Below are positions 3,987 through 22,393 of a stretch of 22,393 nucleotides of DNA, piece by piece. The translations under genes and the position numbers were made by a program. A model generated the notes under the pieces. The model saw nothing but the letters and a program-made list of their open reading frames with translations. It did no database searches and was not told where the DNA came from. The stretch is from positions 1 through 22,393 of IMG/VR virus record IMGVR_UViG_3300025823_000010; one strand, given 5' to 3'. How positions within the stretch are numbered: position 1 is the first letter of the stretch; every line of letters begins with the position of its first letter. Source of the stretch: a virus.

Positions 3987-6272
3987 CTACTCACTACCGG
4001 CACCCACAGCAGCCGGGGTTAAGAATGGGGTGACGCCTACAGGTCCAAGTTCGCGCAATGGGAAGTCAGCACCAGCTGCTGCACTTCCAGCCTTGAATGA
4101 ATTCCGTAGGCCTTGAAGTCCGCCACTCATCTCCATCGTTGACTTTGCGATGATAGCCCCCGGAACACCACCGGCCGCCCCGCCCATCATCGTTGCCATC
4201 TGGCTGAATGAGTCATTGACGTACTTTGCCGCCATGTGTGCGGACTTCGACTTGTTCTGCAGTTCAGGTTGAGCCCTGATAACGGCCCGTGCGAAGTTGC
4301 GGAAGGTCCCGATCTCATCAGGAGTGAACAGGGTAGTAAACAGAGTCCGCGACTTGTCGTTTGCGTCGGTGATGTTCGTCAAGAACTTCTGCCCGCTGAT
4401 GACGTCACGCTTCCCGGGGTCCGTCAGTTTCAGGAACGCTGCCTGCCTGATCGATGACCACTCCTGAGAGTCAGGCCCGAGTTCATCCTTCAGCCTCTGA
4501 GCGAGTTTCGCAGCGTTCTGCTTGCCGTGGATGCCATTGACCGACCAGAAGTAGTTGATCACCTGCTCGGGCGTTGGGTCGAACTCGACCATCGTCTGAA
4601 TAGCCTCGCCGGCGAAGTCCTTGCGCTTCTTGCCACCCTTCAGCCTGGTATCGTTCTGAGTGAACCGCTTCATGTATTCACTGTGAAGAGACCTTGCCTT
4701 CTTCAGTTGATCGATAACGGCCTGGTCGCCGTTGAACATCGACTGGTTTATAGCCCGGTCAATGTACTTGTCGAACTCGTTCTTGATCAGGGTGACCTGG
4801 CGCCGGTCGGTGTCATTCGTCGCGCTGTTGATATTCGCGGACAACTGCCTGCGCATCTGCTCGACACGGTTGATGTGTATCGGGCGTAGACCACCCTCCA
4901 TCTCATCGACGAACCTCTTGCGGTCCATGATCCACTTCAGTGTGTCATTGGTCGCCAGGTTCGCCTCGGTGACATCGAACATATTTATCTTGACGACGCG
5001 CTGTAGCCGGTTTATCAGATTTCTCTGCCCCTCGGGCTTGAGACTTGCGCGTCCGACCTGGTCATAGGCATCCTGACCTTCTTGTCGCAGCCTGCCGGCC
5101 CGGCTCTGGAGTCCTGTGGTGACGTCCTGTGCCATATCGTGCTGGTCGGAAATCATCCGATTCTGTCCGGCAAGGTCTGCCTGGACCTGGCCACGGGCCT
5201 GCATGATCTCCTCACCCTGACGGGCCTGGAAGCCCGGGTTTTCTGGCGTACCCATGCCCAGCTTACGTTGGGCGCCCGCCCCCTTTCCGCCCTCGCGGGC
5301 CTGCTCCTCGAAGTCCAGCTGCGGGCGGTCACCGCTGGCCTGCCCCTTTGTGTACGAGATCCCGAACCTGGATGTATCCTCACCGGCCTGCGTCATCGCG
5401 GCCATCGCTTCATCGTTATACCGGCGGATCAGGTCATCCGTCACGTGCATCGGGTTCATGCCCTGGTTCACGATCAGTTCATTCGTCCACAATGCCCTGA
5501 CTTCGTCCGTCAACTGACCCTTTGCAGCCCGCCAAGCTGGTCGCAGGGCGTTGATCAGGGACACGCTTAAGCCTTCAAACGCTGCGCCACCTGCCGAGGC
5601 AATGGCTACGTTGGTCTTGTCAATATTCGACGGAGAGACCCTCTCAGTGCCTCCTGTGGCCTGGTTCATCAGGTCCATGCCGGTCTCGGTGGCCGCACCC
5701 AGGACACCGGTCGTCAGCATCTTCGATCCGAGACCTACCGCCATAGACGCCCCGCGGCCTGCCGGGGTGAACGCTGCCACCTGGAACCCGGCCTTTGCGA
5801 AGTCGTTGACCGACCACCCGGGGGCGTTCATGTACCCGGTTTCGGCCCCGTAGGCGCTGCCATCGACGATGATATTACCCTGCTTGTCTTCAGCGAACTT
5901 CAGTTTCGGGTAATTCGAGTGCAGGGAATTCAGTTCCCGGCCCTTGTCGAAGGTCGAAACCTTTCCGAGTTGTGCAAGGGCGTAACTCATCGGCCCCTCA
6001 CCACCCGGGATGCTGAATTCAGGAAGGTCATACTCGGCCTTGCCCTCACCGGTTACCATGCTCCTCGCGCCCTGCCAGAACCCCTCTGGGGCATTGTCTC
6101 TGGACCTGGGCAGGCCGCCGGGGTCGAAGGTAGGCATACCCGCTGTCGCCCCCATGTCAGGCATAGCAGGACTTCCGTACTGAGAAAAGTCCGGTGCTCC
6201 TGAGTTCTCCGGCGGGCTCAATGTCGCCGGGGTCCCATAGGCGGAGAAGTCTAGCGGTTCTTGATTAGCCAT
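3987..6272 (-). CDS. Large ejection (internal virion) protein, 761 aa
   Basis: I take ATG 6272 (MANQEPLDFSAYG) as the start because AAGGA precedes it by 6 nt; an upstream in-frame ATG at 6371 would overlap the previous gene by about 120 nt. The N-terminus repeats a DFSxYGxPA motif (residues 8-16 and 28-36). YPKLKFAEDKQGN lies near 121-133. A small-residue hydrophobic region follows at about 160-200. The middle has FGISYTKGQASGD and a long helical, charged portion. The C-terminus is again Gly/Ala rich. Size, composition and position after the gp10-like gene match P22 gp16/gp20-type ejection proteins, which enter the periplasm and help DNA cross the envelope. No lysozyme or transglycosylase motif was seen. 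Confidence 0.75.
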   Translation of the reverse strand: MANQEPLDFSAYGTPATLSPPENSGAPDFSQYGSPAMPDMGATAGMPTFDPGGLPRSRDNAPEGFWQGARSMVTGEGKAEYDLPEFSIPGGEGPMSYALAQLGKVSTFDKGRELNSLHSNYPKLKFAEDKQGNIIVDGSAYGAETGYMNAPGWSVNDFAKAGFQVAAFTPAGRGASMAVGLGSKMLTTGVLGAATETGMDLMNQATGGTERVSPSNIDKTNVAIASAGGAAFEGLSVSLINALRPAWRAAKGQLTDEVRALWTNELIVNQGMNPMHVTDDLIRRYNDEAMAAMTQAGEDTSRFGISYTKGQASGDRPQLDFEEQAREGGKGAGAQRKLGMGTPENPGFQARQGEEIMQARGQVQADLAGQNRMISDQHDMAQDVTTGLQSRAGRLRQEGQDAYDQVGRASLKPEGQRNLINRLQRVVKINMFDVTEANLATNDTLKWIMDRKRFVDEMEGGLRPIHINRVEQMRRQLSANINSATNDTDRRQVTLIKNEFDKYIDRAINQSMFNGDQAVIDQLKKARSLHSEYMKRFTQNDTRLKGGKKRKDFAGEAIQTMVEFDPTPEQVINYFWSVNGIHGKQNAAKLAQRLKDELGPDSQEWSSIRQAAFLKLTDPGKRDVISGQKFLTNITDANDKSRTLFTTLFTPDEIGTFRNFARAVIRAQPELQNKSKSAHMAAKYVNDSFSQMATMMGGAAGGVPGAIIAKSTMEMSGGLQGLRNSFKAGSAAAGADFPLRELGPVGVTPFLTPAAVGAGSE

Positions 6273-7432
6273 TGCCCGTCCTTCGGGTTCACAAACAGCT
6301 GCCCTGGCATCAACTGATTCATCTGCTGTTGAGTGAACGGCCTTGCAACGATTGGATTGGCTGATTTCCACTGCCTGATGTACCGGTCAGCACCATCGAG
6401 ATTACCTCCATTCGCGTCCACAAACTGTTGATATTTCTCGTATATCTTCTCGTTACGATTCATCACTGCCTCACGCAGCAGGATGTAGTTATAAATCGCC
6501 TTCGGCTCGTTTGTGATGTCACCGACAAGGTTGATGGCAAAGGCGAGTTCCTTCTCCGAGGTCGGTCCCTTGAACCGCGCCAGTTCATCAAATGCCTGCT
6601 TGTTCATCAACCTGTTGAATTCCTGCGTGTCTGCCGGGTCAACATTAACCCCCAGTGACTTCAGCCACCGTTCCGATGCGTAACGTAGTGCCCCGGTGCG
6701 CCCAAGTTTCTGGTCAACACCTTCCTGTAGGAGGTACTTCATACGTTCGATGTCTACACGGGACTCCTGCGCGGTATCGACACCTTCGGAAACAGCCGCC
6801 TTGAATTCAAGGTCCGACTTCGCAAGTCCACCGCCCATTGCACCTGCGTAGGCGCTCTCCTGCTTGTTATCGATCTGTACCAGGGGTGTTTGTGGTCGTG
6901 GCTGGAATCCTTCAACCTGGCGCTGTTGTCCGTACTGATTCGACTGCATGAATGCCGGACCTTCCGGCCCAACAGCTGCCTGCGGCTGCCCCCACTTTGG
7001 GTCGCCGTAGATGTTGATTAAGGCGTCCGTTTCCATCTTCAACTGTTCCCGGGTCTTCCCGCCGAACTGCTGCTGGATCTGGTTGTCGTCCATCGTGTTG
7101 ATCTGCTGCTGCATCATCTGGGCCTTTTGCACCATCTGCTCCTGACCCTGTTTTGTTTGCTTGCCGAAGGCATCCAGCATCTTGTTTGCGGTCTCTGGAT
7201 TGACTGCCATCAACTGCTGCATCGCCTGCTGATTGCCAGATGCCGCGGCACCCATCAAGGGAAGTGCGGCGTTGGTCATGTTCACCTTTTGGGTAGTCTC
7301 AGCAGCGTCTGCCGATGCCTTTTGTGCCAAGGCCATCTTGCCGGCCTGGTTCAGGTAGGTATCCTGCAGGGAGTGTGTCAGGAGCGGTTCAGGTGCTCCA
7401 CTACCCCACCTCAATAGATCCATATTAGGCAT
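6251..7432 (-). CDS. Ejection (internal virion) protein, 393 aa
   Basis: The ATG at 7432 overlaps the preceding stop by 1 nt (TAATG), and the 3' end overlaps the next gene start by 22 nt. Residues 90-123 are rich in Gln, Met and Lys (QMVQKAQMMQQQINTMDD) and probably form a coiled coil. The C-terminal half has an ordered helical domain with KSLGVNVDPADTQEF and ARFKGPTSEKELAFAINLVG. The second motif recurs in phage internal virion proteins as I remember them. It is the second of three consecutive large genes after the gp10-like gene, the slot that P22 uses for gp7, gp20 and gp16. The likely function is release with the DNA during infection. The specific P22 equivalent is not assignable. Confidence 0.72.
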   Translation of the reverse strand: MPNMDLLRWGSGAPEPLLTHSLQDTYLNQAGKMALAQKASADAAETTQKVNMTNAALPLMGAAASGNQQAMQQLMAVNPETANKMLDAFGKQTKQGQEQMVQKAQMMQQQINTMDDNQIQQQFGGKTREQLKMETDALINIYGDPKWGQPQAAVGPEGPAFMQSNQYGQQRQVEGFQPRPQTPLVQIDNKQESAYAGAMGGGLAKSDLEFKAAVSEGVDTAQESRVDIERMKYLLQEGVDQKLGRTGALRYASERWLKSLGVNVDPADTQEFNRLMNKQAFDELARFKGPTSEKELAFAINLVGDITNEPKAIYNYILLREAVMNRNEKIYEKYQQFVDANGGNLDGADRYIRQWKSANPIVARPFTQQQMNQLMPGQLFVNPKDGQWLIKNR

Positions 7433-9216
7433 TAGTCACCACCCGTATTCCATGAAACAAAATCTTTCGACCTTCGCGCAGCGTTCAAATCATCGTAATA
7501 CTGGCTCACCCCTGCACTGTCATAGGCCTCGAACATCGGTGCCCAGAAGTTCTCGACGGGCTGCACGTCCATCTGACTCCGCAACTGGCCGATAGCATCG
7601 TTCAGTGCCTGCCTGTAGTAGACCTGTGACGGGTCATCCGGGCCGATCACCTTCGACAACGGGCTGTCTGCAGGTATAATCTTGCCCATCAGAGTGACTA
7701 TGCCCTCGGCGAGAGGCTTGTCCTTTCCAAGTGCCCATAGAGCGTTAACCGTGTCGGTCCTGTCTCCGGGTCCAGGGAAAGCCCCTCCGCTGGCGAACGA
7801 ATCAAGCCCGTCAAGCAGCCATCCAGCCGCCAACTGATAATCTTCACCGTTACGGTCGGTGGCGTTGTTCATAACGTCCATCATCGTGCCGCCTGCGGTT
7901 GCGAAATCAATATTCGCTTGAAGTCTGTCCTCAGGTGTTGCATTAACAACACCCGTCATGATGGCCCCGTTCTTCATCAGTGGCGCCATCGCTCCGGCAT
8001 ACGGGTTTCCAGACTTGATGAGCATCTGTTCCTGTTGGTCAGCATAGGACAAATCATGCCCAAACTGCGATGACAGGATCTCGTACAGTATCTTTCCTCC
8101 GGCCACCGCAAATCCACCGATCATCGCGGTATTCATGAGCCCTGCGGCGACGGACGACGGCACCCCAGCCGCTTGTGTGGCTGCGGTGACCTCTGATGCC
8201 TGAGAGCCTGCCAGTGTGGTGCTCACATCAGCTGTGGTCAGGCCTCCGGCCTGATAGCCTGGGATGGTCAGCGACCCTGCCCCGACACCTGAACCTGCCC
8301 CAGCGGCTGCAGGCGCGGCACTTGCCCCGACATCCCACCATTCCGCGGCGGGTGCCGCACCTCCTCCACCAGATGCCCCTGCAGATGTCCACCCGGACGT
8401 TGCCGAGGCTGCCGGGCCCTGTCCATATGCGTACGGGGTAGCGGCCCCCGGAACACCACCGCCAGTAGCACCACCGGCCACACCTCCGGAACCACCCGCG
8501 ACACCACCACCAGCCGGCAGTGATGGAACAGCGGCACCTGAATTCGGAAGCCCAGTGTATGGAGCTGCAGTACCTGCCCCGGCTATCTGCTTCGGACCGG
8601 TGAACAGGTCCTGAATGCCTTGTGCTGTGCTTGAGATAGACCCGGCCGGCAGGTTCTTCAAGAGATCGAGTCCAGCACCCAGGTATCCGGTTGTTGCCTG
8701 CGAGTCAGCCAGCGGGATCGTCGCCTGCTCGTTACCAATGGCGCTCTGCAGTCCAGCAATACCGGTCGCGGCACTGTTTGCAGCGGATAACCCGCCAGCT
8801 GCCGGTAACCACCTGCGGGCCAGTTCCTGGTCATAGTTCTGGGTGGCAAAATTACCAGCGTCCCGACTCAGCGACTGGTACAGAAGACCGGAATCGTTGT
8901 AACCCTGCGCCCCGAGTGAATTCTGCAGAGCCCTCTGACTCTCACTCAGGCCGAACTCATAACCCGGAGTGCTCCGCATGATCTCGTCGCGGGACTGTGT
9001 GTCATTTCCGTACAGAAGGTCGTTGTACCCGGAAAGCGCCTTAACACCGGATGCAACATAGGGGTCAGTATACTGCTGGAGCGTGTTTATACCGGCTCCA
9101 TAAGCATTAGATTGTACGTTTGCCGCATCCTGCCGGGCATTGTTCTTCTGGTACGAGTTGTACACATTCGCACCGAACCCGAGCAACGGTTCAAGATAGT
9201 CAGTCCATGCCATCAT
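7432..9216 (-). CDS. Ejection / DNA transfer protein with Gly/Ala-rich linker
   Basis: A 594-aa protein. The ATG at 9216 overlaps the gp10-like stop by 4 nt; a second ATG at 9213 is equally usable. The N-terminal domain includes YTDPYVASGVKALSGYNDLL (49-68), STPGYEFGLSESQRALQNS (82-100) and NDSGLLYQSLSRDAGNFA. This is the pattern of phage DNA transfer proteins of the P22 gp7-like type as I remember it. Residues 212-320 are a low-complexity Gly/Ala/Ser/Pro linker. Residues 355-382 are strongly hydrophobic (AGLMNTAMIGGFAVAGGKIL) and could insert in a membrane. The C-terminus is folded and acidic. The layout fits a protein ejected into the host envelope to build a DNA channel. Confidence 0.78.
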   Translation of the reverse strand: MMAWTDYLEPLLGFGANVYNSYQKNNARQDAANVQSNAYGAGINTLQQYTDPYVASGVKALSGYNDLLYGNDTQSRDEIMRSTPGYEFGLSESQRALQNSLGAQGYNDSGLLYQSLSRDAGNFATQNYDQELARRWLPAAGGLSAANSAATGIAGLQSAIGNEQATIPLADSQATTGYLGAGLDLLKNLPAGSISSTAQGIQDLFTGPKQIAGAGTAAPYTGLPNSGAAVPSLPAGGGVAGGSGGVAGGATGGGVPGAATPYAYGQGPAASATSGWTSAGASGGGGAAPAAEWWDVGASAAPAAAGAGSGVGAGSLTIPGYQAGGLTTADVSTTLAGSQASEVTAATQAAGVPSSVAAGLMNTAMIGGFAVAGGKILYEILSSQFGHDLSYADQQEQMLIKSGNPYAGAMAPLMKNGAIMTGVVNATPEDRLQANIDFATAGGTMMDVMNNATDRNGEDYQLAAGWLLDGLDSFASGGAFPGPGDRTDTVNALWALGKDKPLAEGIVTLMGKIIPADSPLSKVIGPDDPSQVYYRQALNDAIGQLRSQMDVQPVENFWAPMFEAYDSAGVSQYYDDLNAARRSKDFVSWNTGGD

Positions 9217-10772: not shown

Positions 10773-11719
10773 CAGAAACGGTCCGGCTCAAAATACTCTA
10801 CAACGTCTTCAGGGTCCCAGTTCTGGGCAATCTGTAAAGCCTCGTCACGGTTGTTCTTCATGTTCTGTGTGACCTCGATGCGGTACCGGTCGGCAACATC
10901 AAGGACCAACTGAAATTTGAGAGGGCGAAACCACTGCTGTGGGTAGTCAGGGGTATCAGTAGCTGAATCGAAATCCTCTATCGGGCGCAGGAACACCATC
11001 TCGATCCGGTCGTCGGAATCAGTCGGAGCCGCATCGATGAACAGCGTCCCGTCCGGGAGGGATGATTCATACAGGTAGGATGACGGGTCACCTTCCTGGT
11101 CCTTGTCCGGCATCGCTTCATACTCATCCAGTACCAACGGGTCCAGTGTGTACTCGTCGCCGTTGTCATCCTTCCACTGCATGGTGAGCATGTTCAACGG
11201 ACGATTGATCTTTGTGGTGTAGGAAATCACCCGTGCACCACTACTAGCAACCGCGGCCATTCCGGTCGTCAGTGTGACCGTAGTACCTGACGGTGCGCCG
11301 TTGACCGTGTCCCAGTGCACAGTACCATTGTCCATCGTGATGCCGATATTATCTCCAGAACTGATGCCGGTGATCGATGTGACCTCAAGCGCAGTTCCGC
11401 TGGCAGTAATCGCAGCGGCCGATGTGGTTTCCGTGTAACTCGCGGTGCAATGGTCACCTGCAGACGTCCCGAGCAAATACTCGTACTGCCCTTTCTGAAC
11501 GAACAGGGTCGCCCTCTTCCTTGACCATACCTTCAAACCCGGTGCAAAGTCAGCCTTGCCCTGCCACTGCTTCACGATCAGGTTCAAGGCCCGGGCGCAG
11601 TTGCTTAGCTGGTCTGAACTTGGAAGTTCGTCCTCCTCAAGCACATGACCATCGAGCAAGGCATCCCTGATCAGGTCGTCACGGCTTACCGAGAAGTCAA
11701 CGGACCCTGACGTCGTCAT
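10772..11719 (-). CDS. P22 gp4-like head-tail adaptor (tail accessory factor)
   Basis: A 315-aa protein. The N-terminus has the helical adaptor pattern SRDDLIRDALLDGHVLEED, then SSDQLSNCARALNLIVKQWQ. This is typical of gp4/gp6-type connector proteins that form a dodecameric ring below the portal. The C-terminal part continues the fold with YPQQWFRPLKFQLVLDVADR. Residues of about 90-170 are a Ser/Thr/Gly/Ala-rich beta insertion (TASGTALEVTSITGISSGDN) that explains much of the excess over P22 gp4 (166 aa). The ATG at 11719 overlaps the methyltransferase-glycosyltransferase gene stop by 4 nt. It precedes the gp10-like gene as in P22. Confidence 0.83.
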   Translation of the reverse strand: MTTSGSVDFSVSRDDLIRDALLDGHVLEEDELPSSDQLSNCARALNLIVKQWQGKADFAPGLKVWSRKRATLFVQKGQYEYLLGTSAGDHCTASYTETTSAAAITASGTALEVTSITGISSGDNIGITMDNGTVHWDTVNGAPSGTTVTLTTGMAAVASSGARVISYTTKINRPLNMLTMQWKDDNGDEYTLDPLVLDEYEAMPDKDQEGDPSSYLYESSLPDGTLFIDAAPTDSDDRIEMVFLRPIEDFDSATDTPDYPQQWFRPLKFQLVLDVADRYRIEVTQNMKNNRDEALQIAQNWDPEDVVEYFEPDRF

Positions 11720-13260
11720 GCGGCCTGCTCCTTTCTCAACAGATCGCGCATCGCGTTAAAGACACGATCAACGCTGATATCGGCCTGGCACTGTGCAACG
11801 CCGGTTTCTTCATCCCTGGAGCAGAAATTGAAGTTGTAGTGCATCTGGTGGCATGGATAGCAGGGTGTGTTCTCCGGGGTCAGTGCGACCGTATTCTTCC
11901 AGTGCTTGGTCAGGTTCTCGTGCGAAGAGTGCGAGAGCAGTGCTACCTTCGGCACGTCCTCGATCCCGACTGAATTCAGCAGACCGGTCTCGGCACCGAA
12001 GACAATATCAGCCTTCTGCGCGAACGTCAGTGACTCGCGTATTGACCAGACGCCGGCAGCGCAGATAACCCTTTTCTCGTTCTCCCACCCCATGTGCAGC
12101 ATCCTATCATCCTTGCCACCGGTCATGACGATAGTCATGTCAGGGTAGGTGATCAGAAGTCTCGCAATGAGTGCGTCCATATAGGGCCATACCTTGTGAA
12201 CGCTCGAACCGCTCAAGGCATAAACAAGGACCGTCCCGCCGAGTTCTTTAATCCGTCCATCGGCCCACTTCTTCTCCTCGTCGGTCGGATAAAACCTAGG
12301 GTCGAAGTCCTTGAACGGCACATCGGCGATAAGGTGAGTGCGCTCCAGGTAGTTCACATTCATAATCGCATGTCGCGCCTCGGTCGAGTATTGGTAGGCG
12401 ATGCGATTCGGCAATGCCAAGAGGCCGGCCTCGACAGACTCTGACAGGTTGATGAACCGGTCGAACTTCTTCCCTTGAACGCCCCAGAACGGCCCCAGTT
12501 CCTCATTCGGTACCTGGTCCTTGCCCTGGATGTACCAGTCGTCTATGTACGGGTTGTTCAGCAGTATCTCTTGACCTTCAGGGGTCGTCATCATGGTGAT
12601 GTGAAACCCCTGCGCCTTCAGCATAGGGAAGATACTGGATGACTGTATCATGTCACCGAACCCGCCATAACGCACCACGCAGGCTGTCTTTCCGGGTTTC
12701 TCAGGGATGCAGACCTTTAGTGTCTTGTGGGATGTGTTCTTGCGGTAGACCTGCAGGAATGAATACTCGTTCCCGTAGGCGCCTGCACCGTTGTCGTGAT
12801 CTCGTACTTCATCGACGATCAGGTCACACATGCCGATATCTTCCATGATTGCCCGTATGTCCCCGGGCAGGAAGTCGGACTTGTGGTCCTTGTTGGCACC
12901 GTCCTCGCCGATGTTCGGATACAGATCCTTGTGCGGGAGGTACAGGACCAGGTGACCGCCCTGCTTGATGACCCGGAACCACTCCTTCAGTGCCTTCTCT
13001 GGACGCTCCATGTGCTCCAGCAGGTGCGAGGTAAATACGAAGTCCATTGACTGGCTCGCAAACATATCAAGGTTGTCAGCCTCAGACACAACATCGCACC
13101 CGTCAGTACCCCAGTGATGTCCGTTGTCTACCCCGATGAAGTGAGGAAATGCCTTGTAATTACCGCACCCGATATCAAGCCCGCGGCCTTTGGTGTAACG
13201 GACCACGTCATACTTGACTTTCTGTGCCTCGTTGCACTGAGGATCTTCAGCCCTCCACAT
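11716..13260 (-). CDS. Fused SAM methyltransferase and GT9 glycosyltransferase
   Basis: A 514-aa protein of two enzymes. Residues 15-175 are a class I methyltransferase: motif I LDIGCG (28-33), LLEHMERPEKALKEWFRVIK (80-99) and GGHLVLYLPH. Residues 190-514 resemble glycosyltransferase family 9 (ADP-heptose:LPS heptosyltransferases): VVRYGGFGDMIQSS (195-208), ALSGSSVHKVWP (348-359), a sugar-nucleotide-type segment FGAETGLLNSVG (421-432) and a Cys-rich tail with C467, C470, C480 and C491. The gene overlaps the 106-aa gene by 14 nt and the gp4-like gene by 4 nt, so it is made with the virion proteins. It could decorate a capsid/tail protein or alter host surface sugar. Substrate and acceptor are unknown. 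Confidence 0.85.
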   Translation of the reverse strand: MWRAEDPQCNEAQKVKYDVVRYTKGRGLDIGCGNYKAFPHFIGVDNGHHWGTDGCDVVSEADNLDMFASQSMDFVFTSHLLEHMERPEKALKEWFRVIKQGGHLVLYLPHKDLYPNIGEDGANKDHKSDFLPGDIRAIMEDIGMCDLIVDEVRDHDNGAGAYGNEYSFLQVYRKNTSHKTLKVCIPEKPGKTACVVRYGGFGDMIQSSSIFPMLKAQGFHITMMTTPEGQEILLNNPYIDDWYIQGKDQVPNEELGPFWGVQGKKFDRFINLSESVEAGLLALPNRIAYQYSTEARHAIMNVNYLERTHLIADVPFKDFDPRFYPTDEEKKWADGRIKELGGTVLVYALSGSSVHKVWPYMDALIARLLITYPDMTIVMTGGKDDRMLHMGWENEKRVICAAGVWSIRESLTFAQKADIVFGAETGLLNSVGIEDVPKVALLSHSSHENLTKHWKNTVALTPENTPCYPCHQMHYNFNFCSRDEETGVAQCQADISVDRVFNAMRDLLRKEQAA

Positions 13261-13567
13261 TGCGGGCCTCTTTTACCTTGGCGACCAGGGTCTCGTGCTT
13301 GAACTTTCCGATGATCGACACGCCACGGGTGCGGAGTTCATCCTTCAGTTCGTCGGTGGTCATCTCGTTTGGATCGGTGTCCGGTTCAAATACAGAGTTA
13401 ACAACGTCATCCAGCACCTCCTCAGGCACCGTATGTTCCACGGGGAACAAAGGCTTGCCGTCAGTGCCGACCTCGACACCGTTGATGTTGTACAGTCTAC
13501 CGTCCTGCGTGTACTTCCAGTTGCGATAACCGACAACCGTTTCAAATGGTTGATCCCGATCCAGCAT
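13247..13567 (-). CDS. 106-aa protein with HeH/SAP-like C-terminal domain
   Basis: ATG 13567 is preceded by GGAGG with a 5 nt gap, one of the best ribosome sites in the window. Residues 1-50 are beta-like (VVGYRNWKYTQDGRLYNING). The acidic middle is VFEPDTDPNEM. The last 35 residues, MTTDELKDELRTRGVSIIGK plus FKHETLVAKVKEAR, form the helix-extended loop-helix pattern of HeH/LEM/SAP-like domains often found in phage head-region proteins. Those folds can bind nucleic acid or protein. It lies between small head-region ORFs and the fused enzyme gene. A head-completion or DNA-contacting role is possible but unproven. Confidence 0.8.
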   Translation of the reverse strand: MLDRDQPFETVVGYRNWKYTQDGRLYNINGVEVGTDGKPLFPVEHTVPEEVLDDVVNSVFEPDTDPNEMTTDELKDELRTRGVSIIGKFKHETLVAKVKEARNVEG

Positions 13568-14402: not shown

Positions 14403-15389
14403 TTATACCGCGCTATCCCATTTGACGATGCGGTTCTGTGCAGCAGTGGTATGGACGATGCCAAAACCACCGATGTAGTACCACGCGATACCCTTCGACC
14501 GTCCAAAGTCCGTCGGAATGCGACCACGCATCTCTTCAGGGTTGGCGATGCCTTCTGCTACGGTGTCCTCACCGAAGAAAAAGATCCAGTCAGACTTGGC
14601 GTTGTCCCACGCATCCGCCGTACCGGTGCTCGAATCCCAAGTAGTGGAATCCACGGCTCCGCCCTTCGGAATGTGGGTCTGCTCGACGTACCGGATATTT
14701 TCATACCGGCCAATCTCACCGTTCATGATCATCTGGAAACCAGCATCGCTGTACTGATAGATGGACTCCAGGTTGTTCTTGAACGTGCGGTACGTTGACG
14801 GCCATGCCAGGGCATAGTAGTCATCGTTGACGTACGGAGGAATGTTGCGTTCCTTCATGAAGTCCACAACAGACTTCGCATGACCATTGCCAAAGGCGAC
14901 GTTGTTGGTTTCCGTCATCGTGCCGTTGACTACAGTATCAAGCGCAACCGTATCGACCTTGGTCAACGGACAAACGCGCAGCAGACAGGAGTCGAACTGG
15001 GCATGTGCGGCGTTGTCAAAGGCCTTCTTGGCATCGTGCTTGAGGGTTTTGTTAACGACCTTCTTCACGGGGTGCAGGGACAGATCGTCCAGCTTCCCGG
15101 TGTAAGGTACGGAATTACCATACTCGGTCACCGTCAAGGTGCCCTGCGTGATGGTAAAGTTGGTTTCCGGCATCGTGTTCGTTTCAACCAGCGTGCCACC
15201 CTGGGAAGATACATCACTGTACACATCCCAATGGTACAACTGCCCGCGGTGCTTACCGAAGGCGTCTTTCACGTCGCAAAACTGGCGAAACTTCACAAGA
15301 GGCTGGACAGCGTGGCGCAGCACATCGGACAATTGGTCCGAGTACATGAAGCCACCGAGCGAGTTTGTCGCCCAGACTTGACCTGCCAT
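14403..15389 (-). CDS. Major capsid (coat) protein, probable HK97 fold
   Basis: A 328-aa protein starting at ATG 15389 with AGGA 8 nt upstream. It follows the scaffold gene by 21 nt, the standard position of the coat gene. Motifs resemble the N4-gp56 type of major capsid protein: the N-terminal MYSDQLSDVLRHAVQPLVKF, a long helix ahead of a domain with YYALAWPSTYRTFKNNLES (191-209), and MNGEIGRYENIRYVEQTHIP (222-241). FFFGEDTVAEGI and a Gly/Ile-rich terminal strand follow. A cleavable N-terminal delta domain is not visible, in line with a separate scaffold. Position is very strong evidence; the family is remembered and not searched. Confidence 0.85.
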   Translation of the reverse strand: MAGQVWATNSLGGFMYSDQLSDVLRHAVQPLVKFRQFCDVKDAFGKHRGQLYHWDVYSDVSSQGGTLVETNTMPETNFTITQGTLTVTEYGNSVPYTGKLDDLSLHPVKKVVNKTLKHDAKKAFDNAAHAQFDSCLLRVCPLTKVDTVALDTVVNGTMTETNNVAFGNGHAKSVVDFMKERNIPPYVNDDYYALAWPSTYRTFKNNLESIYQYSDAGFQMIMNGEIGRYENIRYVEQTHIPKGGAVDSTTWDSSTGTADAWDNAKSDWIFFFGEDTVAEGIANPEEMRGRIPTDFGRSKGIAWYYIGGFGIVHTTAAQNRIVKWDSAV

Positions 15390-16407: not shown

Positions 16408-16698
16408 TCAAACCTCCTCTTTTGCGGTTAAGTTTTGCCATGCAACATCACCGTTGACTATGGCATCGTTCAGGTACTGGGTAATTCTGTTGCCGATCAG
16501 ATATTCCGTCTGTGACGCTGTGATAGCGTTCTGCAGTTCTGTCAGGGTGTTGTATTGGTAAGGATCAATCGTTAGCAGGTCATGGATGGCGTCCTTCTCG
16601 TCCTGCTCGGCCCGGGCAACGAATAGCCTTCCGAGGTCGGTCTCAAGGAAGTCTCGCGCTTCCTGACCGAGTTGCGCTTCGACGACTTCGGCACTCAT
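16408..16698 (-). CDS. Small conserved phage protein between portal and scaffold
   Basis: A 96-aa, mostly helical acidic protein (EAQLGQEARDFLETDLGRLF ... AITASQTEYLIGNRITQYLN). ATG 16698 overlaps the portal stop by 4 nt (ATGA). Small helical proteins in this slot, with the phrase 'QYLxDAxxxGxxAxQxL', occur in many podovirus-like genomes as hypothetical proteins. The gene is probably translated with the portal and scaffold. It may help portal or scaffold assembly, but no biochemical role can be read from the sequence. Confidence 0.78.
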   Translation of the reverse strand: MSAEVVEAQLGQEARDFLETDLGRLFVARAEQDEKDAIHDLLTIDPYQYNTLTELQNAITASQTEYLIGNRITQYLNDAIVNGDVAWQNLTAKEEV

Positions 16699-18839
16699 CT
16701 ACCCACCATCTGTTGCGGCATCTGTGGCAATTGCGGCCTTTGGGGGGTCTGTGGCCTTTGTGCTATCTGGTTGTCTTTCTGCATACCGGACAGGATGCTG
16801 TTCAGCACATTGGCCTGCGCCCTCATGCCCTCCAGGGTCGATGCGTTCTCGGATTTGACCAGTTCACGCAGCAAGTCGGTATCGTTCTTGTCTGCCGCCC
16901 TGCGGGATTCCGACGCCTGCTTGAGCGCTTCCTGCTCCATCCGTCCCTTTGCCTTTGATTCCTCGGCCAGGAGCACCTGCTGGAGTTGCTGCAGGCCTTG
17001 CTTCAGTTGTTCATTCTCCTGCATGGCCTGCTGCAGTTGCGGGCTCTTCTCCATGTCCGTGTAGAACCGGCGGATGTCCTTGTACCCGAGGCGCCCAAAG
17101 ATCTCCTGCGCGATAACCTGGCGGTCCATCTCGGGGGGCAGCATCTGGATGATCTCGGCATACTTGCCAAGCGCAAACAGGAACCGCTCGACCCGGGCGA
17201 CGGGATCAGTAGCCCCACCGCCTACGTCTACCGTCAATGACAGTTCCTGGTTCAGGATCTCATCAGTGATCTGGTCAACGCCATACCGGTCCACGACCTT
17301 CGCACGTTCGGCACACAAGGTCAGGAGCGTGGTGTCGGTCTCATAGGCCTGCTCCAGCTTCAACACCTGCCTGAGTGTCGGCTCAACCCAAGTCTCCGCA
17401 AACAGGCGCAGGGTGAACTCCGTCATGATGTTGCTGTTGCCACGGATCATCTGCAATCCACCAAGGGTGCCGTTGGTGTTGCCCATGTTCGAGGTCTGCA
17501 CCGAACCTTGGGAGAAAAGGCCCAGTAGTTCATCGTAATCGACGTTCAGACGGTCCTGTTCCAGATAACTCGATTGCGTTACATCGTTAAATTCCATCTC
17601 CCGGACGTCAGAATTGACATCATTGACCATCGTCACGCTACCGGCGGCGTTGCGTACCAGGGACTTGATGTCCACCTGCTTGCCTCGGGATACCAGATAA
17701 CGCTTGTTCAGGACCAGTTTCAGGTTGTCGAGGCGGGAATTCGCCACCTCGTTACACTCCTTCTGTATCGGCATACCGATCTCGATGGACCCTGCCGGCA
17801 TGATCTTGTGGGTTTCCAGTTCAACGCACCCCATAGTGACCGGGCGTTCGTTGTGGTGGTAGCACTCCTTCAGGGGTTTCGGGTCCGTCAGTCTATGCTG
17901 GGTGCCGAGCGTAAAATAGACCTTGTCCTCGCCACCTATCCGCATGAAGTTCTCATGTACCCAGACGATGTCGAACTCGCCAAGTTCATCGCTATGCTGC
18001 TGGTCCTGACTGTCCTGCCGATTCCCCTCGCGGGCCGCCCGGGTCGTGTCCACTTCATCCTGCCGGGCGTTCTTGATCGTCTGCTCATCGGCCTTGTGCC
18101 ACTTCGGCTGTCCGGTCTTCGGATCATCGATATCCATGCGCTCAAGGACGTCGCCCACATACATCGGCTGCATCAGGATGATGTACGGACTTGTACCTAT
18201 GGGGTCATACCACTTGGCTGCAGGAGATATTCTTACGTTTTCAACGGGATACAGGTCAATCACCGGCTCATCGGCAATCGTTTCCGTGCGGGATTCTGTG
18301 CGGGTTTCCTGCTTCCCTGTCCTGGCATTGATGAACGGACCACCGGTCTCGGGGTCGATCAGGGGAACATACACGTCATAGGTACGCTCCTGATAGTTCC
18401 AGTATTGCTTACTGCAGACGACCCCGGTGACCGAGGCATCCTGAAGTCCACCGATACAGACCTGGAACCAGGGTATGGTCTTCTTCAGCCGGTAGTTCAT
18501 GACCTCCTGCCAGACGTCAGCACTGACCCGCTGGTCCTTATCGGCGTTGTTCTCAGGCTCGATTGCCATATTGTCTTCGTTGCTGAAGAATGCAGCAGCA
18601 GCGGCGGCCTCATTATTCCTGACCAGTGTGCGGGACTTAGGACGAAATGTCTTCGACCGGTATCGGTAGGCATCGCTGTGGTACTTGGAACCGAGTGCGT
18701 GTTGTGAATTGAATGCCCGGATGTCGTCGTCCCACTGCTTCCGGTAGTTCGCATCGACGAATGAGGTAGATGTATCGAATGCCTCTGCTGCACGGTCCAG
18801 CCATATGTCGCCGGACTTCTCGGTTATTGTCTTTGCCAT
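16695..18839 (-). CDS. Portal protein, P22 type
   Basis: A 714-aa protein, close to P22 gp1 (725 aa). The N-terminus has KTFRPKSRTLVRNNEAAAAA, then FFSNEDNMAIEP, the usual membrane-free start of P22-type portals. Middle motifs include ASVTGVVCSKQYWNYQERTY, DLYPVENVRISPAAKWYDPI and QGSVQTSNMGNTNGTLGGLQ. The last ~110 residues form a Gln/Lys/Glu-rich coiled coil ending in a proline-glutamine repeat (QRPQTPQRPQLPQMPQQ), comparable to the barrel of P22 portal. The dodecameric portal is the DNA entry/exit ring and headful sensor. ATG 18839 overlaps the 132-aa gene stop by 1 nt. Confidence 0.9.
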   Translation of the reverse strand: MAKTITEKSGDIWLDRAAEAFDTSTSFVDANYRKQWDDDIRAFNSQHALGSKYHSDAYRYRSKTFRPKSRTLVRNNEAAAAAAFFSNEDNMAIEPENNADKDQRVSADVWQEVMNYRLKKTIPWFQVCIGGLQDASVTGVVCSKQYWNYQERTYDVYVPLIDPETGGPFINARTGKQETRTESRTETIADEPVIDLYPVENVRISPAAKWYDPIGTSPYIILMQPMYVGDVLERMDIDDPKTGQPKWHKADEQTIKNARQDEVDTTRAAREGNRQDSQDQQHSDELGEFDIVWVHENFMRIGGEDKVYFTLGTQHRLTDPKPLKECYHHNERPVTMGCVELETHKIMPAGSIEIGMPIQKECNEVANSRLDNLKLVLNKRYLVSRGKQVDIKSLVRNAAGSVTMVNDVNSDVREMEFNDVTQSSYLEQDRLNVDYDELLGLFSQGSVQTSNMGNTNGTLGGLQMIRGNSNIMTEFTLRLFAETWVEPTLRQVLKLEQAYETDTTLLTLCAERAKVVDRYGVDQITDEILNQELSLTVDVGGGATDPVARVERFLFALGKYAEIIQMLPPEMDRQVIAQEIFGRLGYKDIRRFYTDMEKSPQLQQAMQENEQLKQGLQQLQQVLLAEESKAKGRMEQEALKQASESRRAADKNDTDLLRELVKSENASTLEGMRAQANVLNSILSGMQKDNQIAQRPQTPQRPQLPQMPQQMVGR

Positions 18840-19237
18840 CAGATGATTATCCCGTTAAACGGTTGATCCTGCGCCCTTATTCCTTCGACGTGCGTTACTT
18901 CTACACCCTTGTCACCCGCCCGCGCAAGTCTGGCGCGTTCCAGCATCTCCCCACCGGCACGGACCACACACTTCAGGACCGGGTCCTGGTACACATCATT
19001 CAGCATCAGCCTGAACCCGTACTTGTACGATATCCTGTGGTTCTTGACGTTCATCACACCGCCCTCACTATCGACGTGGACGGCCCATAGGTACCCGGGG
19101 TAATGCTTCTCAAGCAGATCGGCTGCATTCTTTGCCAGCACCACGTCCTGTCGCTCAACGGCATGGCCGGGCTCGCCCCGGAACTCGGTACGCATCGCTG
19201 CATCGCGCTCGGCCAGTGCCTGGGATAGTGTGCTCAT
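18839..19237 (-). CDS. Hypothetical 132-aa protein before the portal
   Basis: ATG 19237 overlaps the 63-aa ORF stop by 4 nt (ATGA), and its own stop overlaps the portal ATG by 1 nt. The sequence contains HYPGYLWAVHVDSEGGVMNV, a compact mixed alpha/beta segment, followed by RISYKYGFRLMLNDVYQDP and a charged helix. Proteins of this type, with the phrase 'YPGYLWAVxVDxxGG', recur between terminase and portal genes of phages in my memory, without known function. It could be a packaging accessory. No catalytic motif is visible. Confidence 0.78.
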   Translation of the reverse strand: MSTLSQALAERDAAMRTEFRGEPGHAVERQDVVLAKNAADLLEKHYPGYLWAVHVDSEGGVMNVKNHRISYKYGFRLMLNDVYQDPVLKCVVRAGGEMLERARLARAGDKGVEVTHVEGIRAQDQPFNGIII

Positions 19238-19425
19238 ATCAGCCTGAGCATCAACAGCACCCGGCTGAGTACAGGGTATGCAGATACCACGTTGCGGGCC
19301 TTTGTGTACTCCTGCAGGTTGTCGTCGTTGTCATAGTCAAAGCACCAGCCATTGCTGGTGTACATAGGCAGGATCTGCTTCCGGCGCAGTCTCTTGCAGG
19401 TGATTATCGCTGTCAGTAAGTTCAT
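19234..19425 (-). CDS. 63-aa hypothetical protein
   Basis: ATG 19425 overlaps the previous ORF's stop by 1 nt (TGATG), with GGAGGAGGA just upstream. The peptide begins MNLLTAIITCKRLRRKQILP, with a short hydrophobic start followed by a basic stretch. It continues MYTSNGWCFDYDNDDNLQEY. It is too short for a confident fold. The start is supported by coupling on both sides. It is one of five small genes between large terminase and portal. Confidence 0.6.
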   Translation of the reverse strand: MNLLTAIITCKRLRRKQILPMYTSNGWCFDYDNDDNLQEYTKARNVVSAYPVLSRVLLMLRLI

Positions 19426-19571
19426 CAGTCCTCCTCCACTTCAGGTAGGCATTCGTTCTCAACCAGATTCATTCTCTGCTCGTCCGACATCCAGGCATAC
19501 TGCTCCTGCGTGTACAGAACCTTGATGGGTTCTGGCAGGGCGTTGTAGTCTGGGTGCGGAGTGAATGGCAT
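19425..19571 (-). CDS. 48-aa small acidic protein
   Basis: Read directly from the sequence. ATG 19571 overlaps the preceding stop by 1 nt (TGATG); AAGAAGGA is just upstream. The peptide starts MPFTPHPDYNALPEPIKVLY, continues with QEQYAWMSDEQRMN and ends LPEVEED. The phrase 'LPEPIK.. YTxEQYxWM' followed by an acidic tail resembles small conserved proteins near phage terminase genes as I remember them. Function unknown. The coding call rests on overlap spacing and protein-like composition. Confidence 0.65.
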   Translation of the reverse strand: MPFTPHPDYNALPEPIKVLYTQEQYAWMSDEQRMNLVENECLPEVEED

Positions 19572-19747
19572 CAGTCCTTCTTGTAGACTCCGCTCTCGCC
19601 ACGGTCACTGGACTCGAACTTGCGCCCATTGCTGAACTCATAACACTCATCCGACTTGTTATAGTCAGGCCCGTATGCCTTTAACACCAATGCTTTCCAT
19701 GAACGCACCAGGAATGTTGGTTTATCTTGTGATACACCATCAGCCAC
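19571..19747 (-). CDS. 58-aa small protein (GTG start)
   Basis: Read directly from the sequence. GTG 19747 has AAGGAG 7 nt upstream, an excellent site located inside the 37-aa ORF. It overlaps that ORF by 8 nt. The peptide starts (M)ADGVSQDKPTFLVRSWKAL, contains LKAYGPDYNKSDECYEFSNG and ends ESGVYKKD. No family is recognised. The strong ribosome site and the fully overlapping chain of neighbours support it as a real gene. Confidence 0.65.
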   Translation of the reverse strand: MADGVSQDKPTFLVRSWKALVLKAYGPDYNKSDECYEFSNGRKFESSDRGESGVYKKD

Positions 19748-19853
19748 TCTTCTTCTCCTTCCTCGCCTGCATTCGCCTGACGACGTCAGACAGACCGCCC
19801 AGCCCCCTCATCAGGTGCTGTATGCGCTCCCTGTTCTTGCTAGTCTTCGACAT
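19740..19853 (-). CDS. 37-aa very basic peptide overlapping terminase 3' end
   Basis: Read directly from the sequence. ATG 19853 lies in the last codons of the large terminase gene (14 nt overlap, different frame). The peptide is MSKTSKNRERIQHLMRGLGG then LSDVVRRMQARKEKKSG: highly basic and helical. It has no clear ribosome site of its own, so coupling to terminase would be needed. Its strong basic, amphipathic character and its tiling with the next gene suggest a true small gene, possibly nucleic-acid binding. Chance cannot be excluded. Confidence 0.5.
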   Translation of the reverse strand: MSKTSKNRERIQHLMRGLGGLSDVVRRMQARKEKKSG

Positions 19854-21480
19854 AATCAGGCATACAATCGTCTTCGTTGATGATCATCGGCGCCCTCGGG
19901 TCCATGTCATAGATTCTAGATAACGCATCAAGCATATCCTTTGCCGTTGTATTTGGAAAGAAAATCCACTCGTTGCGGATCATGTAATCAACCAGGTCGT
20001 ACAGTCGGTTGTCCTGGTCCTTGCGCTTGATTGGCTTGGCAACCAAATGACCATTGCCACGCTTGATTGCATCACGCTGCGCCGAGGTGGGCTCTCCGTC
20101 GTACGGAAAGAACAGGCGCCAGTTCCGTGCGTCCGGCTCCAACCGGCGGATGCGGTTGTCCTTTGCTACATCCCCGTCACGCGGCCAATTCAGCTCCTGT
20201 ATGTCAAAGTGCTCGTTCTCGATCAACATCATCTGCTCGAAGTGCTCGATGTCAGACTGTGCCCCGAACCGCTCATAACCTACCCAGACACCCTGAACCC
20301 CGGGTGCTGCCATCCATTTGCGCCTGAGTTGCTTCAGCATGGTCCATCGGTCAGACAGCCCCATCTTGTGGCAAGCGCCGTCCAGCAGGTACTTGTTCAA
20401 TGCATGATCTATGCCAACAACACAGAATGCCGTACGACTGGACCCGGTCGACTTCCGGCTGCCGGCATAATCGCACATGATGTACACATTCATGGTCAGG
20501 GGCCGCAGTTCGTACCGGCGTACCCACTCTGGCTTGAGTTCCTGCTCGCTGCCGGCTACAGGGTTCTGCAGTTGCTGGCAGGCGATGGTGTAGGTGCTGG
20601 ATTCGCTGACCTTCTTCTGCCAGACCTCGGGCTTGAGGAACACCGGGTCTCCGTCCATCGTACCATCACTGGTTGCCGGGTAGACCCTAGGAACCAGGGC
20701 GCCACGGGTCAGCAGCTGTCCGTAGGTATCCGCGAAGTTGTACCGGGTGCCGACGTGCCATGTACGTGGGTGCTGGCTGCTGGTCAGGTTCTGGGCCAGT
20801 TCCCAGGCCTCGGTTGTCTTGATGATCTGGTCAGGGGTGTTCACGGATGAGGGCGTCACCGTGTCATCGAAGATCGCCAGGCGAAAATGCTTAGAGATAG
20901 GCTGGCCGTCCACCAGACCCCAAGCCTCGACCGTTGCCTCCTTTGGGTTGGTGTTGCGCCTGACCACTATACCGGAATCCAGGGACCAGACGGGTGCTTC
21001 GCGCCGCGGGTTCGCCCATAGTACGTCGCTGTAGATCTCCTTCAGGTACTCGTTCTTCTCGAACTCCTGCATGATCTGGGACTGGAATGCCTTGGCGATT
21101 GGCCGGGTGTGGCTGAAGATTCCAATCGTGATGTTGCAGTCGTTCAGGATCTCCTGGATGGCCCCAGCGTATGTGATGATGGTGGATTTGTAGTGGTCCC
21201 GGGCCCAGAGGTCCAGAAACCCGTCAGTATCGGCCTCGACCTCCCGGCACCGGTCATATAGCCATGCCTGGCTGGCGTCTGCCCGCCCTAGAATGTGGGT
21301 CAACAGGAAGTATCGATCATTACGCCCGAGCGCTGCGACGGTATCGGCATCACACCCTGGCTCGTGCAGGACCATGTCGTACCACTGCATGGATTTCTTC
21401 CACGGGAGCGAATGCACCCAGGGTAACTCGTCGAGTATCAGTTCCGCGTTAGTCTTCGACTGTGCTGCGGAGCTTGGCAA
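19840..21480 (-). CDS. terL: Terminase large subunit (packaging ATPase-nuclease)
   Basis: A 546-aa protein (apparent TTG start at 21480 with GAGGG 8 nt upstream; no in-frame ATG until residue 31). The ATPase domain has a Walker A-type segment ARDHYKST (93-100) and Walker B FRLAIFDD (199-206), with a coupling segment SQHPRTWHVGTRY. The nuclease domain starts at YIMCDYAGS (D337) with further candidate acidic residues near GYERFG (E403) and DLVDYM (D496/D499). This is the motor that drives DNA into the procapsid and cuts the concatemer. It follows the small subunit with a 32 nt overlap. It shares the general layout of tailed-phage terminases. The headful type is inferred from the P22-like context. 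Confidence 0.9.
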   Translation of the reverse strand: MPSSAAQSKTNAELILDELPWVHSLPWKKSMQWYDMVLHEPGCDADTVAALGRNDRYFLLTHILGRADASQAWLYDRCREVEADTDGFLDLWARDHYKSTIITYAGAIQEILNDCNITIGIFSHTRPIAKAFQSQIMQEFEKNEYLKEIYSDVLWANPRREAPVWSLDSGIVVRRNTNPKEATVEAWGLVDGQPISKHFRLAIFDDTVTPSSVNTPDQIIKTTEAWELAQNLTSSQHPRTWHVGTRYNFADTYGQLLTRGALVPRVYPATSDGTMDGDPVFLKPEVWQKKVSESSTYTIACQQLQNPVAGSEQELKPEWVRRYELRPLTMNVYIMCDYAGSRKSTGSSRTAFCVVGIDHALNKYLLDGACHKMGLSDRWTMLKQLRRKWMAAPGVQGVWVGYERFGAQSDIEHFEQMMLIENEHFDIQELNWPRDGDVAKDNRIRRLEPDARNWRLFFPYDGEPTSAQRDAIKRGNGHLVAKPIKRKDQDNRLYDLVDYMIRNEWIFFPNTTAKDMLDALSRIYDMDPRAPMIINEDDCMPDYVED

Positions 21481-21712
21481 AGGGTATGCCCTCGTGGATG
21501 AGTTTGACTTCCCCAGTGTGTTCTACCATCAATTCCATTGCCTTGAGGTCAGGTATTGACTTGGCGATTACTATCTTTGCGGCATTTACCTGTGTTGCCG
21601 TCATTTCTATTTCACCATTTGCGTGAGAAATCAAACGGTTAATAAGCTGACTTGATGCTATTAGTCGCTTTGTCTTTGTATCGTGTTCGATTTTGTTTGT
21701 TCTTGCCGCCAT
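21449..21712 (-). CDS. terS: Terminase small subunit (probable)
   Basis: An 87-aa protein directly upstream of the large terminase. The central segment SQLINRLISHANGEIEMTAT then QVNAAKIVIAKSIPDL matches the 'RIxRxxLxGxxxMTPTQVxAAxxLLxKxxPDL' pattern I remember from small packaging proteins of phages. It is short compared with P22 gp3 (162 aa) and lacks a large N-terminal extension. A pac-recognition role is expected. It is the first gene of the late operon. ATG 21712 is weakly provided for: GGTATGAT lies upstream, with GGTAT as the only purine-rich stretch. Confidence 0.78.
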   Translation of the reverse strand: MAARTNKIEHDTKTKRLIASSQLINRLISHANGEIEMTATQVNAAKIVIAKSIPDLKAMELMVEHTGEVKLIHEGIPFAKLRSTVED

Positions 21713-21747
21713 ATCATACCTGAGAGTAATGCACGTTACGCCATAAT

Positions 21748-21825
21748 AAAAAACCCGATCCCCACACCTGCGCGGGCAGCTTGAGGGCGAAGCGTCGCGC
21801 GGGTGAGGGAGTAGGGGAACGGGTT
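21748..21825 (-). terminator. Strong intrinsic terminator before the late operon
   Basis: On the minus strand AACCCG (21820-21825) pairs with CGGGTT (21752-21757), and six T residues (21748-21753) follow. The arm continues inward with TCCCC/GGGGA-type pairing (21814-21818 with 21059-equivalent positions 21759-21763), then CACC/GGTG (21802-21805 with 21065-equivalent 21765-21768), and a 5-bp GCGCG/CGCGC stem (21796-21800 with 21770-21774). GCTT/AAGC can close the apical loop. This is a long, GC-rich rod ending in a U-tract, 35 nt before the small terminase ATG. All late transcripts starting upstream must pass it. Confidence 0.8.
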
Positions 21826-21925
21826 AAACTAATTCCCTGCCTGTCCGTTGCTGTGGATGTCTCTGGCAGTTATCTATTGGATGCTCCAGGTACCAACAGC
21901 GAACCGCAACAGGCCGGGAAATCTA

Positions 21926-21951
21926 TATACGTCAATCAATCATGTATACGT
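21926..21951. repeat. TATACGT direct repeat in late leader
   Basis: TATACGT occurs at 21926-21932 and again at 21945-21951, start-to-start distance 19 bp, close to two helical turns. The intervening sequence is TCAATCAATCA-like. It could be a protein-binding pair or a secondary promoter region, or simply chance in AT-rich DNA. Confidence 0.3.
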
Positions 21952-22016
21952 AATTGGGTTTTCTATGCTTATTAACTTTTTTCAGGGAATAGGAGACCTA
22001 CTGGCATTTTTAGTAA

Positions 22017-22045
22017 TCCCCGAAGGGTAAACCCCGAAGGGTTAC
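22017..22045 (-). promoter_or_regulatory. Tandem UUCG hairpins at predicted transcript 5' end
   Basis: On the minus strand AACCC-TTCG-GGGTT (22030-22043) is a 5-bp hairpin with a C(UUCG)G tetraloop. It can be extended by two pairs past a bulge. Two nucleotides further on, CCC-TTCG-GGG (22018-22027) makes a second, shorter one. They start at or next to the predicted first transcribed base. No U-tract follows either hairpin, so they are not standard terminators. Confidence 0.6.
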
Positions 22046-22048
22046 GGT

Positions 22049-22077
22049 ATTATAGCGCATTATCAATGAGATGTAAA
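22049..22077 (-). promoter_or_regulatory. Sigma70-type late promoter (pR'-like)
   Basis: On the minus strand TTTACA (22072-22077) and TATAAT (22049-22054) are separated by exactly 17 nt. This is 5/6 plus 6/6 match to the host vegetative consensus. It reads toward the small terminase. The -10 overlaps the stop codon (22050-22052) of the Q-like gene. The start point should be about 22042. Confidence 0.75.
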
Positions 22078-22393
22078 ATATTGTACCTGTAATCCCCTAA
22101 TTGTCTGGACGTCATGTTTAGCACCCTTTTCGTGTCATTGTACGACATGCCCCTGATGTACATACAGCAAACTATCAGCTTTAACTGCTCTGGGAAACTC
22201 AATACAACCGGGTCTATCTTTTCCAGTTTCCTCTCAAACCTCAATACAGGCGTTTTAGAGCGTGTTTCACGGTGGCTATGCGGCTGGCAGTGTTCTATAA
22301 GGGGTTTATGCTTTCGACGGTATACAGCGGCTTTCAAGGGCTTCCTGCGGGTCTCTGGCCACGTGCTTGTGATAAACAATCCTTGGCATGTTC
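22050..22393 (-). CDS. Q-like late antiterminator or sigma-r4-like regulator, partial
   Basis: The frame is open to the right edge, so the true start may be outside; a TTG at 22379 is the only start-like codon seen near the edge. About 113 visible residues. The N-terminal part is very basic (ETRRKPLKAAVYRRKHKPLI). The C-terminal part, SFPEQLKLIVCCMYIRGMSY then NDTKRVLNMTSRQLGDYRY, is a helix-turn-helix like sigma region 4 or phage antitermination Q proteins, including the 'Y-x-x-G-M-S' turn. It is directly upstream of the late promoter and terminator, where lambdoid phages keep gene Q. It probably lets RNA polymerase read through the terminator into the late genes. A plain transcription activator is the alternative. 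Confidence 0.6.
   Translation of the reverse strand, partial: TCQGLFITSTWPETRRKPLKAAVYRRKHKPLIEHCQPHSHRETRSKTPVLRFERKLEKIDPVVLSFPEQLKLIVCCMYIRGMSYNDTKRVLNMTSRQLGDYRYNILHLIDNAL

Follow-up and report, generated by a model that had tools for sequence, protein, structure and literature searches.

Which regulator turns on the late genes of a phage in which a strong promoter appears to fire directly into a strong terminator placed just ahead of the terminase genes, and is that regulator encoded by the open reading frame (ORF) that ends inside the promoter? This question is raised by the right end of IMGVR_UViG_3300025823_000010, a complete IMG/VR virus record of 22,393 bases, which was analysed over its whole length (the window). 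The record is classed as linear, and its right end is therefore a contig end, at which the gene upstream of the promoter is cut off. We observed, in this order, an ORF with a helix-turn-helix (HTH)-like C-terminus, a promoter, a leader, a terminator and the late operon, and we consider the chances about even that the unit at 22049-21748 forms, together with the operon, a late switch working by antitermination, of the type of lambda pR'-tR'.

Organization of the late operon

All recognisable genes of the window are carried by the minus strand (leftward), and the structural genes continue to its left end. The genes coding for the small and large terminase subunits, the portal protein and the major head protein are located on the same strand and form an unbroken late operon past the terminator (Table 1). 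An earlier analysis of the same DNA (the original prediction) had placed such an operon beyond the terminator and had taken the small terminase for granted; both points stand, since the large terminase, portal and capsid genes were identified on that strand and the relatives of the small terminase (41-77% identity over the matched part) are in several cases encoded directly 5' of a large terminase gene, the homologues in L022, L023, L025, L026 and L157 adjoining it upstream.

Several other features of the operon and of related genes were observed. Immediately ahead of the portal gene lies an ORF of 132 residues (18839-19237, -); L029, L030 and L031 encode an equivalent at this position, with a common motif around AGGE-LERA, and the Pfam and PHROG searches gave the ORF no name above noise; the 600-base gap between this portal-side gene and the large terminase (19238-19839) contains weak small ORFs only. 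Within the structural operon, the translation of the ORF at 11716-13260 (-), of 514 residues, looks by eye like a SAM methyltransferase in its N-terminal half and like a heptosyl/glycosyltransferase in its C-terminal half, and the 106-residue protein encoded at 13247-13567 (-) has a SAP domain (PF02037, E 1.4e-05), a DNA-binding domain that is unusual for a structural gene cluster. In L017, a large terminase of 957 residues (4747-7620, +) has an apparent intein-like insertion (CKLTKVLTTTGWKCHGDLKPGDFVFSPSG...), recognised by eye.

Table 1. Coordinates of the features of the window discussed in the text.
Feature	Coordinates	Strand	Basis or remark
Upstream half of the frame, running off the contig end	22245..22391	-	Coding status doubtful
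Coding-like 64-codon stretch, sigma-region-4-like HTH	22053..22244	-	Possible TTG start at 22244; candidate antiterminator or late activator
Sigma-70-type promoter TTTACA-17-TATAAT	22049..22077	-	11/12 consensus; overlaps ORF 3' end and stop
Predicted leader RNA, 295 nt	21748..22042	-	No convincing ORF
Transcript start, two tandem ACCC-TTCG-GGG repeats	22013..22042	-	5'-terminal hairpins possible; fold z -1.85
Long mid-leader hairpin abutting the terminator	21833..21920	-	-35.2 kcal/mol for 21822-21930, z -2.96, 0/300 shuffles
Intrinsic terminator (tR'-like), hairpin and T6	21748..21825	-	Fold and shuffles; predicted
Small terminase subunit gene, first of the late operon	21449..21712	-	Homology
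Large terminase subunit gene	19840..21480	-	phrog_38, E 1.4e-31; relatives up to 63-64% identical
Portal protein gene (SU10-type)	16695..18839	-	PF23899, E 2.2e-32
Major head protein gene	14403..15389	-	phrog_1357, E 5.9e-15

Promoter and terminator ahead of the terminase genes

The TTTACA-17-TATAAT promoter that had been proposed, with the end of an ORF inside it, is present exactly as described (22077-22049, -), the stop codon TAA (22052-22050) overlapping the -10 box. Of 2000 dinucleotide-shuffled versions of 21713-22200, 12 had an 11/12 promoter on the same strand; the whole window holds two such matches, the other lying in antisense orientation in a structural gene, and the promoter is therefore no proof by itself. 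The predicted transcription start is at ~22042. In the first 60 nt of the transcript a TAnnnT pause-like element fits only TACCCT at +14, a match that is not informative against chance, and beyond it no clear sigma-pause -10-like element was found at the transcript start; likewise, the spacer between -35 and -10 contains no direct repeat resembling the QBE of 21.

The leader of ~295 nt and the strong U-tract terminator 35 nt before the small terminase, also part of the original prediction, held up against shuffled sequences. The terminator hairpin (21825-21752) is followed by a T-run (21753-21748) that ends 35 nt 5' of the small terminase ATG at 21712; it has a predicted energy of -34.7 kcal/mol (z -4.2), was equalled in stability by none of 300 shuffles and surpasses in stability every other hairpin-plus-T-run of the window, and in 8/300 shuffled leaders a T6 was accompanied by a hairpin at least as stable as -20 kcal/mol. 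The terminator is aimed at the late genes only, with no flanking T-run on the other strand, and it was missed by a terminator scan because of its long loop. Both promoter and terminator are far above shuffles and stand in the right order, which supports a switch. A scan for sigma-70-like promoters found none on this strand between the terminator and the terminase, so that late transcripts coming from upstream must cross the terminator and late expression probably depends on readthrough. With a promoter firing into a terminator and no other promoter visible before the late genes, controlled readthrough is the economical model.

The late genes of many phages use activators and not antiterminators, which counts for a different reading, in which the terminator simply closes the early operon and the HTH protein acts, as a conventional activator or a sigma-like factor, at a late promoter that does not follow the sigma-70 consensus. 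Phage-specific promoters of this kind escape a sigma-70 consensus scan, and a sigma-region-4-like HTH is the only detectable feature of the protein (see below). We regard this reading as unlikely, however, since a strong sigma-70 promoter feeds the terminated leader, which a plain end-of-operon terminator does not need, and since the 35 nt from the T-run to the terminase start leave little room for a promoter.

Predicted leader RNA

The longest ORF in the leader has 21 codons, and none of the leader ORFs has a clear Shine-Dalgarno sequence. No family was found in an Rfam search of the leader, and comparison of its DNA with phages gave only chance matches of 27-45 nt. The mid-leader hairpin (Table 1) is an addition to the original prediction. 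The predicted transcript opens with two copies of ACCCTTCGGGG, which lie within a 14-nt direct repeat, and this repeat recurs as a partial third copy 62 nt upstream, within the ORF and just 5' of the promoter.

The absence of a convincing ORF, together with a 5' repeat hairpin, a hairpin of ~88 nt (z -3.0) and a terminator, is also what could be expected if promoter, leader and terminator constituted the gene of a stable small regulatory RNA, or a small RNA combined with an mRNA leader, and not primarily a late switch. The 6S RNA of lambda is a precedent for a leader-type small RNA of phages. IsrK of Gifsy-1 is reported to be another (PMC4825925). The absence of an Rfam match, the fact that no related DNA was found in which conservation of the structure could be followed, and a late operon that would be left without an evident promoter speak against this reading, which we hold to be improbable.

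It seems still less probable that the leader RNA itself controls readthrough, be it through put-like 5' UUCG hairpins or through a refold in which an upstream arm captures the U-tract. Such control has a reported precedent in the put sites of HK022 (PMC9378689), and it would fit the 14-nt direct repeat at the transcript start, as well as an imperfect 14-nt inverted repeat (21953-21966 / 21746-21759, 86% complementary) that could pair the U-tract and whose arms are base-paired when the leader adopts its minimum-energy fold. Nevertheless, the refold is not strongly favoured, since with the upstream arm blocked the leader loses only 1.1 kcal/mol (-92.3 vs -93.4 kcal/mol); T-rich ends pair readily by chance, and the z of the whole-leader fold is only -1.6. 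Promoter-proximal hairpins are, moreover, widespread: in many viral contigs (L038-L117) TATAAT is followed after 3-12 nt by a CCCTTCGGGG hairpin and often, soon after, by a start codon, which suggests that 5'-terminal UUCG hairpins may occur on phage mRNAs. These hits are single hairpins whose count is, by our own estimate, close to chance, and tandem UUCG hairpins after a promoter were seen in none of the viral-contig hits read. As single UUCG hairpins after TATAAT are common in viral contigs, those of the leader may be ordinary 5' mRNA hairpins.

The open reading frame upstream of the promoter

The frame that ends in the promoter has 113 codons, is open to the contig end and divides into two parts. 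The original prediction described a gene with a C-terminal HTH; the HTH is supported, by a phrog_36 match and by the helix order of the predicted fold, and the gene in part, with only codons 50-113 being coding-like. The amino-acid coding score of these codons is +5.8 (1.6 to 25.3 for sixteen real Q C-termini) and that of codons 1-49 is -12.1 (corresponding region of the 16 Q proteins: -4.5 to +13.3), the latter having a GC2 of 0.52 and a purine-1 of 0.50. The codon score of the whole frame is -16 bits, while all 20 structural genes score positive; early genes may differ from structural genes in codon usage. The coding-like stretch would represent the C-terminus of a small protein or perhaps all of it; a start at TTG 22244 would give a protein of 64 residues. 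An alternative frame of 28 codons at 22306-22390 (-), in frame +1 relative to the ORF (NMPRIVYHKHVARDPQEALESRCIPSKA-stop; NMPRIVYHKHV...), may represent the 3' end of another gene upstream, and gave no database match.

The phrog_36 match (22050-22241, E 8e-4 for the 22-kb record) is the only one in the six frames. We rejected phrog_36 as a specific family, as it has matches in 14 of 14 control genomes, among them archaea, and is therefore a marker of regulator HTHs in general. AlphaFold models calculated without an alignment had a pLDDT of 48.6 for the 113 residues, with the upstream half below 50, and of 66.9 for the last 64 residues alone, in which helices 19-30, 35-42 and 46-63 follow each other in HTH order. 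The matches returned by Foldseek are non-significant and are led by sigma-E region 4 structures; with the longer model, the antiterminator AlpA (7xyb_G) came sixth (E 2.8), and at such model confidence the likeness to sigma region 4 and AlpA may be taken as a hint only. We conclude that the C-terminus of the upstream ORF probably carries a sigma-region-4-like HTH. A Pex2_Pex12 Pfam match of the protein (E 0.02), below the cut-off, was taken as noise.

A chance open frame of ~113 codons, with the regulator encoded by phage sequence that is absent from the record, would explain the negative codon score, the non-coding-like N-terminal half and the lack of homologues, but we find it hardly credible, given that the last 64 codons have a coding score in the range of real Q C-termini and contain the sole phrog_36-like HTH of the record, and that, at this composition, a particular frame would stay open over 113 codons with a probability of ~0.001.

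Relatives of the upstream protein and Q families

No relatives of the upstream protein were found in two viral-contig scans, in phages, in plasmids, in 369 genomes of one bacterial class (that of G037, the genome of a MAG titled Candidatus Thioglobus), or in PDB, Pfam, PHROGs and NCBIfam. Matches with E about 1 in Bacteroides phages, located in part on an annotated tail fibre gene, were taken as chance. The relatives of the terminase, portal and small terminase gave access to more than 100 loci, none of which has a similar gene upstream, and a phmmer search across all ORFs of these loci found nothing that the upstream protein matches.

The original prediction could not assign the protein to a named Q family, and our searches bear this out: the protein matches neither PF06530 or phrog_79 (21-type Q) nor PF03589 or phrog_127 (lambda-type Q), whereas the positive controls matched strongly, real 21-type Q proteins matching PF06530 at 6e-16 and 1e-33 and lambda Q matching PF03589 at 6e-58. 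PF06530 and PF03589 had no matches in the related viral records scanned either, while lambda, P22 and phi80 match PF03589. When every PDB chain was searched with phmmer (E <= 10), no antiterminator, AlpA included, was listed. We also built a 21-type Q profile from 16 PF06530-type Q proteins. With hhalign, this profile covers the C-terminus of the window protein with a score above 200/200 shuffles and a probability of only 6%; with hmmsearch, the window protein ranks 142nd of 11,352 ORFs (E 80), below unrelated HTH proteins, and the invariant W and D of the 21-type Q family alignment are absent from it. Judged by these comparisons, the window protein would belong neither to the 21-type nor to the lambda-type Q family, and a very distant relation to 21-type Q is possible.

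A putative late switch

The Q-like layout of the locus is supported, and lambda-type Q switches are its best model. We are slightly less confident, falling just short of an even judgement, that the product of the upstream ORF is the Q-like antiterminator, a role suggested by its position and its HTH. Since 21Q, AlpA and GafZ have an HTH, and since AlpA and 21Q share a fold without sequence homology, a sequence-orphan HTH protein is a reasonable candidate here. Counting against the switch are the lack of a homologue and of a Q-family profile match, the non-coding-like N-terminal half, the lack of a clear pause element and of a QBE-like repeat, and the terminase relatives, which were read without finding a similar gene upstream.

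In an antitermination switch of this kind, the host RNA polymerase would start near 22042 from the strong promoter, without needing phage help, would synthesize the structured leader of ~295 nt and would then stop at the terminator before the terminase genes. As the regulator encoded immediately upstream accumulated, it would dock through its sigma-region-4-like HTH at or near the 22077-22049 promoter and load onto the early elongation complex, and the polymerase modified in this way would read through tR' and the ~21-kb late operon.

The original prediction considered a new class, which is possible. More specifically, we propose, tentatively and as a rather doubtful reading, that the small sigma-region-4-like protein represents an antiterminator family of its own, which would have no sequence relation to lambda Q, 21Q, AlpA or GafZ; the protein would load at the promoter located in the 3' end of its gene and activate the late operon via readthrough of the terminator of the 295-nt leader. 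Lambda Q, 21Q, AlpA and GafZ are known examples of antiterminators without mutual relation; if true, this would be one more independent antiterminator that shares layout and fold but not sequence, and a lambda-type late switch would be present in a group with an SU10-type portal and podovirus-like gene order, far from the lambdoids. In that case, the promoter-leader-terminator anatomy 5' of a terminase could flag antiterminators that are missed by profile searches. Should the proposal be wrong, what remains is a well-defined leader RNA that has two strong hairpins.

Comparison with known systems

The layout had been claimed to be exactly that of lambda and P22; the order of Q, pR', leader and tR' is indeed the same, while the exactness does not hold. 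Lambda, P22 and phi80 have, like the window, a gene followed by a strong host-type promoter, an untranslated leader, an intrinsic terminator and the late operon. In lambda and P22, however, the -35 element begins 42 nt past the Q stop and the lysis genes come first, whereas in the window the promoter lies inside the ORF 3' end and the terminase comes first; PF03589, moreover, recognises the proteins of lambda, P22 and phi80 but not that of the window. As a control, the same script was applied to lambda and located pR' at 42 nt and the T-run of tR' at 264 nt downstream of the Q stop; in the 21-type phages AS1 and IME307, strong T-run terminators are found 119-127 nt after Q. The leader of lambda has ~194 nt and that of the window is longer (295 nt). 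None of these differences in promoter position, leader length and gene order breaks the late-switch model.

The 21-type Q proteins (PF06530, phrog_79; Pseudomonas phages Ab31 and Riah, and coliphages) are small and have a C-terminal sigma-region-4-like HTH, as the window protein probably does, and a likeness between Riah Q and the window protein can be seen by eye (YFIHGMSYRD / MYIRGMSYND and a terminal ID-x-x-L). 21Q has a sigma-like or C-terminal HTH and its site lies between -35 and -10 (PMC6606751), and AlpA, which binds between -10 and -35 with a C-terminal HTH, has a fold in common with 21Q without sequence homology (PMC9371919). AlpA also has a downstream intrinsic terminator and no sequence homology to Q (PMC9371919; PMC7969949). 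In Pseudomonas aeruginosa it is a chromosomal regulator of lysis genes, unlike the case of the window, but the promoter-terminator plan and, probably, the HTH are alike. The N-terminal part of 21Q and AlpA forms a ring in the RNA exit channel, a part that a 64-residue HTH protein from the window would lack.

As in the window, the put hairpins of HK022 are located at the 5' end of phage transcripts; they act, however, on early transcripts and have a defined structure, whereas the leader of the window has no Rfam match. GafZ, from the gene transfer agent of Caulobacter, is an antiterminator with a sigma-like HTH and a site between -35 and -10 (PMC11150451). It acts together with GafY and IHF, and the window protein is set beside it by description only. 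Nevertheless, GafZ governs a cluster of packaging and structural genes from the promoter of that cluster (PMC11150451), and the plan of the window is alike.
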